64,000 bases of DNA. Source: Faecalibacter bovis (GTDB lineage Bacteria; Bacteroidota; Bacteroidia; Flavobacteriales; Weeksellaceae). Location of the stretch: the NCBI RefSeq assembly GCF_017948305.1, contig NZ_CP072842.1, forward strand, positions 2,610,501-2,674,500. Direction: 5' to 3'. A program made the translations under genes and the position numbers. The notes beneath the pieces were generated by a model. It searched no databases, was not told the DNA's origin, and worked only from the letters and a program-made list of their open reading frames with translations. Shown here in pieces: positions 11,492 to 49,037 of the stretch (position 1 is its first letter; every line of letters begins with the position of its first letter).

Positions 11492-11499
11492 TAAATTTG
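11492..11499 (+). promoter_or_regulatory. -7 box (TAAATTTG) of candidate small RNA A
   Basis: An exact TAnnTTTG match is followed by GCAG, with no coding gene downstream on this strand before a strong terminator at 11575-11604. Confidence 0.55.
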
Positions 11500-11504
11500 C
11501 AGTA

Positions 11505-11608
11505 CAATAATTCATTCAGATGTAAGGTTATTACAAGCTTTATTGAATTCATAGTATTTTAGGTTGGTTTATAAAAAAAGGGTTGAATAGCTTCAACCCT
11601 TTTTTATT
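11505..11608 (+). ncRNA. Candidate small RNA A of a three-member family
   Basis: About 100 nt run from just after the -7 box to the T-run. In order there is a stem-loop region (TGTAA/TTACA inside AATTCA/TGAATT), the linker ATTCATAGTATTTTAGGTTG (continuing GTTTA, 11547-11571), and a 13-bp terminator stem (11575-11587 with 11592-11604). The linker and layout recur at 36.0 and 36.4 kb. There is no conserved reading frame: the frame across the linker is preceded by a stop here. The terminator also closes the convergent brnQ gene. Confidence 0.55.
11575..11604. terminator. Bidirectional terminator, 13-bp stem
   Basis: AAAAAGGGTTGAA pairs with TTCAACCCTTTTT around loop TAGC. It ends candidate RNA A rightward and brnQ leftward. 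Confidence 0.8.
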
Positions 11609-11626: not shown

Positions 11627-12910
11627 TTACTTTTTTCTGAATAAAAATCCTAAACCAAATCCAATTACTGATGGTAAAACCCACCCTAAGTCATATTCAA
11701 AAAATGGTATTTTATTTAAAGTTGTAATTGTTTCATCGCTAAAAAATCCTAATAATTTAAATAATCCTAAAGTTCCAATTATTGTAGATGCTATTAGTGC
11801 TCCTATATATGGTGCTTTGTCTTTAATTACTTTACCAAATAAAACAATATATAAAACTAGCGTTATGACAATTGGGTATATAAATGCTAATGGTGGATAT
11901 GCAAAATTGATAATTTCATCCACTCCTTTGATCGATAATCCGAATGAGATTACAGTACATGCGATAACTACTGTTGTATAACTAACTTTATTATTGAATA
12001 ATTCGCTAAAGAAAGAACCTACTGCAGATGTTAAAGAAATTGCTGTTGTTAAACACGCAAATGCCATACATACTGCTATTGCAATTAAACCATATTGACC
12101 TAGTAAGTTTGTAGAAATCTGAATCAATAAGTCAGATCTTTTGATTGTAGAATCAGAAACTCCCGAAGTTGCTCCTAAATAAATTAATCCACCGTAAACA
12201 AATAATAAGCATATCGCTGATAATGCTCCGGAAATAATAGTTACTTCAGTTTTACTTTTTGTATCGTTGTAGCCTTTCGCTTTTGCAGCTGAAATAATTA
12301 TACCAGCAAATATAACTGAAGCCAATACATCTAAGGTTTGGTATCCTTCAATAAATCCTAATGAAAACGAATCCATCATCGTTAATTTAGAAACTTCTAG
12401 TGTTTCCACTGGATTTACTATTCCAACAAAAATCAAAATTGCTAATAACAATAACAGAATCGGAGTTAAATAATTTCCGATTACATCAACAACTTTAGAT
12501 GGACGTATGGCTAAAACTAATGTTATAATAAAGAATGCTAAAGAACCCCAAAAAGGATTTAATTCTGGAAAAAAAGGTTTTAAACCAACCTCGAAAGTAG
12601 TTGCAGCAGTTCTTGGAATTGCAATTAATGGTCCAATACAAATCATAATAATTGTACCCAAAATTGCAGCAATATATTTATTAACTCTATTTCCTAAATC
12701 ATTGAAATTATCACCTGATTGAATGACAGATAAAATTCCTGTAAATGGCAATAAAATCCCTGTTAAACCAAAAGCGATCATTGCAATTAAAAAATTAGAA
12801 CCAACTTGAACCCCAATTAATGGTGGTAACAATAAATTTCCGGCTCCAAAAAACATTGCAAAAAGTGCAAAACCTAATGTTAAGATATTATTTAACTTCT
12901 TTTTCTCCAT
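11627..12910 (-). CDS. brnQ: Branched-chain amino acid transporter, BrnQ/LIVCS family
   Basis: This 427-aa integral membrane protein has about 12 hydrophobic segments. The N-terminal signature FALFAMFFGAGNLLLPPLIG is diagnostic of the LIVCS family, and GFIEGYQTLDVLASVIFAGII is the second conserved block. It imports Leu, Ile and Val with a cation (Na+ or H+) across the inner membrane. Length and topology match the family (about 430 aa). It is transcribed alone; the preceding 190 bp hold no other gene. Its terminator is shared with candidate RNA A. Confidence 0.92.
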   Translation of the reverse strand: MEKKKLNNILTLGFALFAMFFGAGNLLLPPLIGVQVGSNFLIAMIAFGLTGILLPFTGILSVIQSGDNFNDLGNRVNKYIAAILGTIIMICIGPLIAIPRTAATTFEVGLKPFFPELNPFWGSLAFFIITLVLAIRPSKVVDVIGNYLTPILLLLLAILIFVGIVNPVETLEVSKLTMMDSFSLGFIEGYQTLDVLASVIFAGIIISAAKAKGYNDTKSKTEVTIISGALSAICLLFVYGGLIYLGATSGVSDSTIKRSDLLIQISTNLLGQYGLIAIAVCMAFACLTTAISLTSAVGSFFSELFNNKVSYTTVVIACTVISFGLSIKGVDEIINFAYPPLAFIYPIVITLVLYIVLFGKVIKDKAPYIGALIASTIIGTLGLFKLLGFFSDETITTLNKIPFFEYDLGWVLPSVIGFGLGFLFRKK

Positions 12911-35923: not shown

Positions 35924-35931
35924 AATCTTTG
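35924..35931 (+). promoter_or_regulatory. Near-consensus -7 box (AATCTTTG) of candidate RNA B
   Basis: It differs from TAnnTTTG only in its first base and is followed by GCAATA. TTCG at 35899-35902 lies 21 nt upstream as a possible -33 element. Confidence 0.4.
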
Positions 35932-35936
35932 CAATA

Positions 35937-36084
35937 GAAAATTAAAGTTTTCGACATGTAAAGGGGTAATCAAATGAAGTTGATTATTAAGATTGAAAAA
36001 TTATCCCTTTGTATTCATAGTGTTTTTTTATAGTAGTTTAGGTTGGTTAAAAAGGTTTTGCATTTGCAAAACCTTTTTTTTATA
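35937..36084 (+). ncRNA. Candidate small RNA B of a three-member family
   Basis: About 145 nt. An 11-bp stem (AAAGGGGTAAT with ATTATCCCTTT, one G-U) encloses an inner inverted repeat TAATCAA/TTGATTA. The conserved linker follows (36013-36050, ATTCATAGTGTTTTTTTATA then GTAGTTTAGGTTGGTTAA), and then a 13-bp terminator stem (36050-36062 with 36065-36077). A 19-codon ORF (35974-36033) crosses the linker, but it is not conserved in the other copies. The 758-bp gap between 35668 and 36428 is otherwise gene-free. Confidence 0.6.
36050..36081 (+). terminator. Strong intrinsic terminator of RNA B
   Basis: AAAAGGTTTTGCA pairs with TGCAAAACCTTTT, followed by four more T. Confidence 0.85.
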
Positions 36085-36300
36085 TAATTTATTAATTCAA
36101 AAGGAGTTATAAAATTGATTTGTGTTAAATTTTCAATTATTGAATAAACCTTTAACCATTGTTTTACATATAAAAACTCCTAGTGTTTATCGAGATAAAA
36201 CTCATTTATAACGAACACAATAGTTTCTAACTATTTCTTAATAGAATAATTTGTATATATTTTTATTAAAACTGAATAAATATTCTACAACTTTGCAATA

Positions 36301-36432
36301 TAAAATTAATTTTTTCATATTCATTCTAAAACGAAATTTTAAAGAAGATTGAGCTTTAAAATTAGTTTTAATTCATAGTGTTTTTTTATAGTAATTTAGG
36401 TTAGTAAAAGGTTCGATTTCGAACCTTTTATT
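36301..36432 (+). ncRNA. Candidate small RNA C, tandem with B
   Basis: About 130 nt start just after TTTGCAATA (weak -7 CAACTTTG at 36288-36295). A hairpin has outer TAAAAC/GTTTTA and inner AATTTTAAAG/CTTTAAAATT around AAGATTGAG. The linker (36371-36409, ATTCATAGTGTTTTTTTATA then GTAATTTAGGTTAGTAAAA) is nearly identical to that of RNA B over its first 22 nt. An 11-bp terminator stem follows. Its primary sequence upstream of the linker differs from B, so the stem-loop is variable while the linker is kept. Confidence 0.58.
36406..36429. terminator. Terminator of RNA C, overlapping the end of the ArsC gene
   Basis: AAAAGGTTCGA (36406-36416) pairs with TCGAACCTTTT (36419-36429). It reaches 2 nt into the stop of the convergent leftward gene and can serve both strands. 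Confidence 0.75.
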
Positions 36433-36775
36433 TTTTTATAAATTCTGTTATATTTTCCGCAGGTCGCCCTATTACTCCTTCTCCATCTCGTAAAACGATT
36501 GGTCGCTGAATTAATTTAGGATTTTCTACCATAATTTTAATTAATTCATCATCAGAGAAATCTTTTCCTTTAAATTGTTCTTTCCAAATCAATTCGTTTG
36601 TTCTAACTATATCAATTGGGGAAACTTTTAATTGTGTTATCACATTTTTTAACTCATCAAAAGACAATTCATCTTTTAAATATTCTCTCACTTCAAATTC
36701 TACAGCAGCTTCTTCCATCATTTTAATGGCATCTCTACTTTTTCCACATCTTGAATTATGTAAAACGGTGTACAT
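36428..36775 (-). CDS. arsC: ArsC-family arsenate reductase (thiol-dependent)
   Basis: This 115-aa thioredoxin-fold protein has catalytic C10 in HNSRCGKSR and the C-terminal oxyanion-site residues NPKLIQRPIVLRDGEGVIGRP. It is predicted to reduce arsenate to arsenite with a glutaredoxin or similar thiol donor. The single Cys and the RP motif separate it from the Spx regulators. No arsenite exporter or ArsR lies beside it, so a general redox role (as for the related YffB) is possible. It runs opposite to, and ends against, candidate RNA C. Confidence 0.85.
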   Translation of the reverse strand: MYTVLHNSRCGKSRDAIKMMEEAAVEFEVREYLKDELSFDELKNVITQLKVSPIDIVRTNELIWKEQFKGKDFSDDELIKIMVENPKLIQRPIVLRDGEGVIGRPAENITEFIKK

Positions 36776-43179: not shown

Positions 43180-43194
43180 CCCTACAAATTTAGG

Positions 43195-43247
43195 TAGAGG
43201 AATGATTTGACTGCTTGCAACCTCATTAAACAAATGCTAAACCAGGA
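43195..43247 (+). promoter_or_regulatory. SAM-II-like riboswitch upstream of metK
   Basis: The segment has the SAM-II core. P1 is GAGG (43197-43200) with CCTC (43221-43224). Its loop contains GATTTGAC and CTTGCAA. The loop stretch ATTTG (43205-43209) pairs with CAAAT (43231-43235) to form the H-type pseudoknot, followed by GCTAAA (43236-43241) and AGGA. Order, spacing and conserved bases agree with SAM-II; the related SAM-V class is an alternative. Placement before SAM synthetase is biologically consistent. Binding has not been tested. Confidence 0.78.
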
Positions 43248-43298
43248 TACTTCAGTTATCGCATTTCCTCTCGACTTATATATTTAAATTTATACAAA

Positions 43299-44558
43299 AT
43301 GTCATATTTATTTACATCTGAGTCAGTATCAGAGGGACATCCAGATAAAATCGCTGATCAAATTTCAGACGCATTATTAGATCACTTTATTGCTTTTGAT
43401 GCTAAAAGTAAAGTTGCTTGTGAAACCTTAGTTACAACAGGACAAGTAGTTTTAGCTGGTGAAGTAAAATCTAAAGCATATATAGATTTACAAAGAGTAG
43501 CACGTGAAACAATTAAAGAAATTGGTTACACGAAAAGCGAATACATGTTTGATGCTAACTCTTGTGGTATATTATCTGCAATCCACGAACAATCTCCTGA
43601 TATTAATCAAGGTGTTGACCGTACTTCTGATGAAGAACAAGGAGCTGGTGACCAAGGTATGATGTTTGGTTACGCAACAAACGAAACAGATAACTATATG
43701 CCTTTAGCATTAGATTTATCTCACCGTATTTTAAAAGAATTAGCTCATATTCGTAAATACGAAAATGATTTATTACCATATTTACGCCCTGACGCAAAGT
43801 CTCAAGTAACTATTGAATATGATGACGATAATAATCCTGTTCGTATAGATACTATTGTAATTTCTACTCAACATGATGATTTTGCTAATGAACAAGCGAT
43901 GCGTGATAAAATCCAAAACGATTTAATCAACATCTTAATTCCAAGAGTTAAATCGCAATTACCTGTTCATATTCGTGAATTATTTAACGAAAACATTACG
44001 TATCACATCAACCCAACAGGGAAATTCGTAATTGGAGGACCTCACGGAGATACTGGTTTAACAGGTCGTAAAATTATCGTTGATACTTATGGTGGTAAAG
44101 GTGCTCACGGTGGTGGTGCGTTTTCTGGAAAAGATCCATCAAAAGTAGACCGTTCAGCTGCTTATGCTGCTCGTCATATTGCTAAAAACTTAGTTGCAGC
44201 TGGTGTTGCTGACGAAGTTTTAGTACAAGTTTCTTATGCTATCGGTGTAGTTGCTCCAGTTTCTTTATTAGTTGATACTAAAGGTACTGCAAAAGTTAAC
44301 TTAACTGACGGTGAAATTTCTAAAATAGTATCTGAAATTTTTGATATGCGTCCTTACGCAATTGAAACTAGATTAAAATTAAGAAATCCTATTTACAAAG
44401 AAACTGCATCTTACGGACACTTAGGACGTCAACCGGAAACTGTTACAAAACGTTTTGAATCAGCTAACGGAATCGATGTTGTTGAAGTTGAAGTTGAATT
44501 ATTTACTTGGGAGAAATTAGATTTCGTTGATCAAGTTAAATCAGCATTTAATATTTAA
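43299..44558 (+). CDS. metK: S-adenosylmethionine synthetase
   Basis: This 419-aa enzyme makes SAM from methionine and ATP in the cytoplasm. Signatures are [20 protein letters not shown] at the N-terminus, [16 protein letters not shown], and the P-loop-like [19 protein letters not shown]. It is slightly longer than E. coli MetK (384 aa) because of small insertions, as usual in Bacteroidota. It is preceded by a 120-nt leader carrying the SAM-II-like riboswitch, so it should be repressed when SAM is abundant. A strong terminator follows. Confidence 0.96.
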
Positions 44559-48811: not shown

Positions 48812-48930
48812 TCAAATAGTTTTAGCTAAAATAGTGAAATTTTTTAGGTGAATAATTTTAAGAAAACTTATCTACAAAATTCTTTGACAACTAAGATTAA
48901 TAAGTTTAAAAAAGTTAGACTAATGCAAAA

Positions 48931-49037
48931 ACGCGTTAGGGATTGTAATGGAAATCCTTTTGTTTTTTTGGATTACATTATTTTTTAGAAAAAACAAAAG
49001 ATTGCAATGAAAAACCCGACCGAAGGGAACGCCCTAA
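48931..49037. repeat. Flavobacterial dispersed intergenic repeat (hairpin-forming)
   Basis: The core is ACGCGTTAGGGATTGTAATG then GAAATCC, and CCCGACCGAAGGGAACGCCC then TAA. Ends TTAGGG and CCCTAA are inverted; CTTTTGTTTTTT (48957-48968) and AAAAAACAAAAG (48989-49000) form a 12-bp stem; GATTGTAATGGAAA and GATTGCAATGAAAA are imperfect direct repeats. The GCGTTAGGGATTG...GACCGAAGGGAACGCCC consensus is one I recall between genes of many Flavobacteriia. It contains no ORF. Its other copies are not in this window. Confidence 0.65.

Follow-up and report, generated by a model that had tools for sequence, protein, structure and literature searches.

Results

Three loci in the window share a linker

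The window, which is the whole stretch of 64,000 nucleotides analysed here (Faecalibacter bovis contig NZ_CP072842.1, positions 2,610,501 to 2,674,500 of the forward strand), contains three loci with a common linker, referred to as copies A, B, and C. Copy A is flanked by a TPR-protein gene on one side and a convergent Branch_AA_trans gene on the other, and copies B and C are flanked by a peptidyl-prolyl isomerase gene and a convergent ArsC-family gene. The exact linker pattern, ATTCATAGT...AGGTTRGT, was observed three times in the window, at 11547-11568, 36013-36047, and 36371-36405, all on the plus strand, whereas it was found in none of 100 dinucleotide-preserving shuffles of the window. 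These results indicate that the three shared-linker loci picked out by a sequence-only reading of this DNA are real, and the layout which that reading had described, a TTTG box followed by a variable hairpin, the linker, and a terminator stem, is present at all three (Table 1).

Table 1. Features of copies A, B, and C in the window
Feature	Positions	Strand	Basis and remarks
Copy A, -7-like box TAAATTTG	11492..11499	+	Read in the sequence; compare TAnnTTTG
Copy A, variable hairpin	11514..11548	+	Folding
Copy A, conserved linker TTCATAGTA...TTTAGGTTGGTT	11547..11572	+	R1, 60.4 bits; model-building sequence
Copy A, terminator stem-loop	11574..11605	+	Converges on Branch_AA_trans gene 11627-12910 (-)
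Copy B, -7-like box AATCTTTG	35924..35931	+	Read in the sequence; TTTGCA near 35928
Copy B, small 5' hairpin and main variable hairpin	35937..36016	+	Compensatory changes among relatives in the main helix
Copy B, linker with two TTYATAG motifs and TTTAGGTTGGTTA	36013..36050	+	R1, 81.2 bits; model-building sequence
Copy B, terminator	36049..36079	+	R1 match, folding
Copy C, TTTGCA box	36292..36297	+	Read in the sequence
Copy C, variable hairpin	36327..36370	+	Minimum-energy fold; centroid fold differs
Copy C, linker, TTTAGGTTAGTA form	36371..36407	+	R1, 62.1 bits; model-building sequence
Copy C, terminator	36403..36432	+	Converges on ArsC-family gene 36428-36775 (-)

Folding calculations gave the same arrangement for all three copies, with a hairpin first, then a linker that is mostly unpaired, and finally a terminator stem. 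The z-scores were -3.28, -2.93, and -3.00 for A, B, and C, respectively, and in each case 1 of 200 shuffles was as stable, with the terminator contributing to the stability. The upstream parts and the terminators are dissimilar between the copies. Alignment with relatives showed that TTCATAGTA of copy A is the counterpart of TTTATAGTA in B and C, and that B and C have the motif twice, ATTCATAGT being the additional, upstream copy.

Further copies in the genome, the genus, and the order

R1, a model based on 19 A/B/C-type sequences from four genomes, among them A, B, and C themselves, gave 11 matches in the F. bovis genome, namely A-C, copy D (C1:234395-234456, minus strand, 40.4 bits), copy E (C1:105323-105382, plus strand, 56.9 bits), and six weaker ones; the match at 2782939, the sole one of the six inspected, was rejected as a terminator after an ORF. 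A second model, R2, is sequence-only and was built from 19 flavobacterial copies with no Bacteroides sequence among them; it matched a further copy, H (C1:2730816-2730882, plus strand), at 27.6 bits. Copy G, near C1:832,690 on the minus strand, was found via its complement in a pattern search; it carries the D linker, has counterparts in three relatives, and is absent from the R2 matches in this genome. The presence of six copies, A-E and H, in the F. bovis genome is well supported, and G is likely a seventh, so that the family, proposed from the window to have three copies, has six or, with the weaker G, seven.

Related genomes, which it had been suggested to search, also contain copies: the best R1 match had an E-value of 3.1e-7 or lower in all 14 genomes of the genus, four of which had supplied sequences to R1. 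The B-type copies have been amplified locally, with four B/C-type copies in the relative G001 and at least six in G004. In another relative, G013, the site of copy A is occupied by two copies of other forms, located between what by eye appear to be the same TPR and Branch_AA_trans genes.

A scan of named genomes for the D-type pattern gave 15 stretches. The pattern was observed in Empedobacter brevis, E. falsenii, E. stercoris, E. tilapiae, and E. sedimenti, in Faecalibacter macacae and F. rhinopitheci, in Chishuiella, in Moheibacter sediminis (five places) and Moheibacter lacus, and also in one MAG and a further Weeksellaceae strain. R1 gave eight matches in three genomes of a different family of the order (f2, genus g7). 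TTTTTCATAGTAAGATTTTGGGTTAGTT is present in all of these matches except the divergent L130, in one case with an additional T. Among 346 genomes of the order, nine, including F. bovis, were matched by R1 at E<=3e-4, and the other 337 had no match at this threshold under strict filters, indicating that the distribution is patchy or the detection incomplete.

The R1 matches in genomes G385 and G548 appeared doubtful by eye. Those in f11/g16 are located at ORF ends; at L120, L122, and L123, a TTTCATAGTTTTTTAGGTTG-like sequence and a terminator directly follow the apparent end of an ORF, and this element may be a 3' UTR-derived form. At positions 1501-1531 of L013, in genome G026 from another family of the order, a stem and a T-run follow TTCATAGTTATAGTTTTGAGTTTAGGTTAGT; the R2 score was only 4.2 bits.

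Conservation of the linker, structure, and promoters

For the orthologues of copy E, the invariant columns were 34 of 34 in the linker, 22 of 24 in the 5' TTCATAG segment, and 24 of 71 in the hairpin (n = 11 of the 12 extracted sequences, the shorter L092 being left out). These results support selection on the linker, and the difference between the linker and the hairpin bears out the earlier claim that the linker is not conserved merely by recent duplication. A fixed linker combined with exchangeable stems is the pattern that had been proposed.

For the B group, the hairpin and terminator cells of the alignment were paired in 87.2% of cases, compared to 78.5% in shuffles, and five pairs were changed on both sides, compared to a shuffle mean of 2.0, with 2 of 500 shuffles reaching five; these values are for 8 of the 12 extracted sequences, and the structure was taken from the same alignment, which favours the result. 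For E, the pairs of the structure are mostly invariant and thus lend little covariation support.

The hairpin loop of copy B contains ATGAAG (35974-35979), a possible pairing partner for the RNA's own TTCAT motif (36014-36018), and similar arrangements are seen in several relatives. A self-inhibiting fold is possible.

Of 56 distinct copies with a terminator, 41 had the promoter-like box AnnTTTGy at 15-125 bp upstream, whereas it was present in 6 of 56 control regions taken from farther upstream. The stricter box TRnnTTTG was found for 28 of 77 copies, compared to 8 of 77 controls. TAnnTTTG is the -7 consensus quoted in PMC7366714.

Relation to FopS

FopS (RF04319) was the top Rfam family at copies B and C and the fourth at A, behind three unrelated families. 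The scores for A, B, C, and D were 21.9, 27.6, 27.9, and 27.0 bits, respectively, below the gathering score of 56; the best score in the F. bovis genome, 27.9 bits, corresponds to an E-value of 0.05. The gathering score was reached in none of the 14 genus genomes, and a search of 296 genomes of the phylum at E<=0.001 matched three, F. bovis not among them. At E<=0.1, 8 of the 14 genus genomes were matched, with several of the matches not family-like by eye. At E<=10, the F. bovis genome gave ten matches, of which C and D were accepted by their sequence and the remainder, including L004, were rejected as chance-like by eye.

In the reciprocal direction, a 125 kb set containing 18 RF04319 loci was searched with R2, which matched 12 of them at E<=0.0034; many of the 12 are paralogues with the same linker, and the best unrelated match had an E-value of 0.014. 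Over 395 genomes of the phylum at E<=0.01, R2 matched 23, namely F. bovis, four with FopS, and 18 with one match each. In the four, which are Bacteroidaceae-like (G259, G267, G667, and G707), all ten R2 matches are FopS sequences; in G259 and G267, six R2 matches coincide with places where RF04319 is over its cut-off, out of 17 RF04319 matches there. R1 matched 15 of the 18 RF04319 loci at E<=0.17, but the 19-24 bits reached there do not exceed the score of a bare terminator (24.6 bits), and another site in the window scored 32.1 bits.

The linkers can be arranged in a chain from FopS (GTTTTTCATAGTATTAGATTTAAGGTTAA) through the f2 form (GTTTTTCATAGTAAGATTTTGGGTTAG) and the B3 copy of G001 (GTGTTTTTCATAGTAGTTTAGGTTG) to D (CTTTTTCATAGGTTTAGGTTGG). 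In pairwise alignments, the FopS linker was equalled by 0 of 3000 shuffles against the f2 form and by 1 of 3000 against B3; the corresponding numbers, again of 3000, were 97 for B, 50 for E, 56 for A, and 14 for D. The conserved seed of FopS, GUGUUUUUCAU.GUAUUAGAUUUAAGGUUA, thus has a related, shorter-spaced form in these RNAs, for which the shuffle support is strong for f2 and B3 only. These comparisons, which are of sequence, suggest that the flavobacterial RNAs and FopS likely share descent. The sequence-only reading, by which the RNAs resembled nothing recognised, is revised in this respect, since FopS is the top family at B and C, although sub-threshold, and the reciprocal search and the intermediate forms agree with it.

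Alternatively, the flavobacterial sRNAs could be unrelated to FopS, an AT-rich anti-start-codon sequence and terminators having converged. The RF04319 scores under the cut-off, the weak direct alignments, and the patchy census (9 of 346 order genomes) would be expected in such a case, and an anti-ATG sequence could arise repeatedly, as the other R2 matches suggest. However, convergence would leave unexplained why the reciprocal R2 matches in the four Bacteroidaceae-like genomes are solely FopS and why the f2 and B3 forms are intermediate, and we consider it unlikely, while giving it more weight than any other alternative to common descent or function discussed below.

The flavobacterial RNAs are similar to FopS in being multicopy and dispersed in one genome (here A-E, H, and the weaker G), in having a TTTG-type box upstream, an intrinsic terminator, and a linker complementary to a start codon, and in that this linker contains GTTTTTCATAGTA...GGTTA or a close form. 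They differ in the shorter spacing within the linker, in scores under the RF04319 gathering score, and in architecture: FopS is a single-stranded 5' stretch followed directly by an intrinsic terminator, and the flavobacterial linker and terminator correspond to this, but A, B, C, and E have an extra hairpin before the linker. FopS is approximately 65-70 nt long, whereas the flavobacterial RNAs are predicted to reach about 165 nt. Another difference is the RRM protein RbpB, which was not found in the F. bovis genome: RRM_1 (PF00076, the RbpB domain) had no match there at E<=0.001, with a positive control in Bacteroides ihuae.

FopS is reported to be highly conserved within the Bacteroidaceae, based on BLAST with a word size of 28 (PMC11697453), and forms as distant as the present ones would therefore be out of reach of that search. 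The same report describes the FopS sequence in a Bacteroides phage, the binding of FopS by RbpB with the conserved part of FopS at the binding footprint, and, for Bacteroides thetaiotaomicron, an extended seed that pairs with the start region of susC mRNAs and blocks translation, a block that RbpB relieves (PMC11697453). In the available text of a paper on P. gingivalis, FopS is mentioned once, in the discussion of RbpB. No report of a FopS-like family outside the Bacteroidaceae was found in the titles and the starts of abstracts of open-access papers.

In G124, a genome of another genus in the family of F. bovis, L028 scored 43.9 bits with RF04319 (under the cut-off; E-value 6e-5) and had no R1 or R2 match; it is possibly FopS in that genus.

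Pairing of the linker and candidate targets

The complement of the linker reads AACCAACCTAAA...CTATGAA, and TTCATAG constitutes an anti-start-codon motif. TTCAT was read in A-E, G, and H, and is absent from the f2 copy L130.

For the 18 other Bacteroidota genomes matched by R2, 17 matches were examined, and 13 of these have an ATG on the complement. Ten of the 13 ATGs are the first ATG of an ORF of at least 100 codons, compared to 10 of 228 background ATGs, in a count that includes orthologous loci, leaves out the incomplete locus L154, and has a background not matched for A-rich leaders. Three of the ten, L155, L161, and L165, correspond to a single gene start, apparently that of the same membrane-protein gene, in three genomes of one genus of the order (g8), and without them the count is 7 of 10. 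Their leader resembles AACCAACCCAATACTATGAAAA, a sequence similar to the complement of the sRNA linker. On the linker strand, a stem with an energy of -17 to -19.5 kcal/mol and 5-8 consecutive T are present 67-70 nt downstream; because of this terminator-like stem, the three may be family members of a cis-antisense type. In L150 and L153 a stem precedes four T, and the other 12 of the 17 are without a stem of such strength.

When four linkers were paired with 413 start regions (464 kb), the duplex energies were better than those of all 12 shuffled linkers for B and for E, of 11 for D, and of 7 for A. Internal coding regions paired with the linkers about as well as the starts, and better for D and A, indicating that the duplex-energy signal is not start-specific. 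The top predicted target is a protein which we take to be an M48-type protease from its HEIGH motif. Its energy with the D linker was -24.5 in F. bovis and -22.8 in G001, compared to between -7.9 and -18.6 in 11 further relatives, and the pairing of this best candidate is thus not conserved among relatives. For AACCTAAA-N-ATGAA, sites lay at ORF starts at 10 of 26 loci (26 of 30, four sRNA loci being dropped), compared to 19 of 361. AACCTAAA itself was present in 0 of 460 sampled start regions, its permutations averaging 1.07, and the excess was therefore treated as composition. A single candidate target, the gene at L200/L234, has AACCAACCTAAA and CTATGAAAAA before its start. The F. bovis genome contains seven SusC genes over the cut-off, and their starts showed by eye no clear complement of the linker. 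Since there is no preference for starts, the best candidate is unconserved, and AACCTAAA is absent from the sampled starts, the proposed start-codon pairing is argued from analogy and from the shape of the linker.

The lack of targets from the searches in the F. bovis genome is also what would be expected if the linker of these real, conserved RNAs bound a protein, as a sponge or decoy, and did not pair with mRNA at all, the likeness to FopS then being a shared protein-binding motif. The extreme conservation of the linker (34 of 34 columns in 11 E orthologues) would fit such a role, as would the binding of FopS by RbpB, with its conserved part at the footprint (PMC11697453). However, the F. 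bovis genome has no RRM_1 match at E<=0.001, whereas the Bacteroides ihuae control was positive, and the anti-start TTCAT recurs in A-E, G, and H, though it is missing in L130. We regard a purely protein-binding linker as improbable, and slightly more so than convergence.

Proposed identity and mechanism

The conserved loci, their layout, the conservation of the linker, the number of copies, and the likeness in sequence are observed, and on this basis A, B, and C are probably a flavobacterial FopS-like branch of trans-acting sRNAs with a linker antisense to translation starts. A trans-acting RNA, as the sequence-only reading had proposed, is the best reading, within which we infer transcription, common descent with FopS, pairing, repression, and every target. 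The RNAs would be multicopy, independently transcribed, and intrinsically terminated sRNAs of about 75-165 nt, conserved in the genus and in Moheibacter. A Bacteroidota-type promoter would drive each copy, and in each RNA a mostly single-stranded linker would separate a variable hairpin from a terminator. This linker, ending in TTTAGGTTGGTT or a close form, would be the active part, and most forms have the putative anti-start-codon motif TTCATAG (complement CTATGAA) in the linker or in a 5' segment. By analogy with FopS, the linker would pair with a few mRNAs at their start regions and block their translation.

It is very improbable that the loci are ordinary terminators, 3' UTRs, or cis-leaders of neighbouring genes instead of independent sRNAs: they are intergenic and near gene ends, but the genes following A and C are convergent, so that the RNAs of A and C are not leaders of those genes, and the copies have their own upstream boxes and a linker that recurs beside different genes. 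Least probable of all are short coding genes, since a plus-strand scan found a short ATG ORF in B but none in A or C, in agreement with the claim that no reading frame is shared, and the authors of the FopS study ruled out sORFs in FopS (PMC11697453).

A wider reading of the FopS-like branch, which may well hold but which we put forward only tentatively, is that start-codon-antisense sRNAs are an ancient, Bacteroidota-wide class, of which FopS is the branch in the Bacteroidaceae, and that the flavobacterial family is multicopy, mixed in architecture, and works without RbpB. The mixed architecture would comprise one or two anti-start motifs, the extra hairpin, and possibly the cis-antisense L155, L161, and L165.

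FopS has been described as a family of the Bacteroidaceae, and distant cousins in the Weeksellaceae and in another family of the order would, if true, widen it and justify a wider Rfam model or a clan. The origin of FopS-type regulation and its need for RbpB would then become testable in genera such as Empedobacter, with no RRM protein found in the F. bovis genome.

Other RNAs

Flavo-1 and 6S-Flavo, the two families that the sequence-only reading had wished to see excluded, gave no match at A, B, or C at E<=10 with their covariance models. In the window as a whole, 6S-Flavo had no match at its gathering score, and Flavo-1 (RF01705), an RNA family thus present in the same window, had a single match at 48930-49025 with 57.2 bits. 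The sub-threshold matches to psm_mec, RefA9, the L20 leader, and other families were rejected, as they formed no consistent pattern across A, B, and C.

Two other described sRNAs are among the nearest known counterparts. GibS of Bacteroides thetaiotaomicron has one seed, there called R1, in common with FopS according to PMC11697453, and differs by a second seed, there called R2. Rfp18 of Flavobacterium psychrophilum is, like the RNAs described here, a conserved flavobacterial sRNA with predicted mRNA pairing, and is set apart by its description as strongly structured and pairing via its third stem-loop (PMC9723704).

The window also contains a SAM-II riboswitch at 43191-43250 (63.2 bits), just upstream of the S-adenosylmethionine synthetase gene at 43299-44558.
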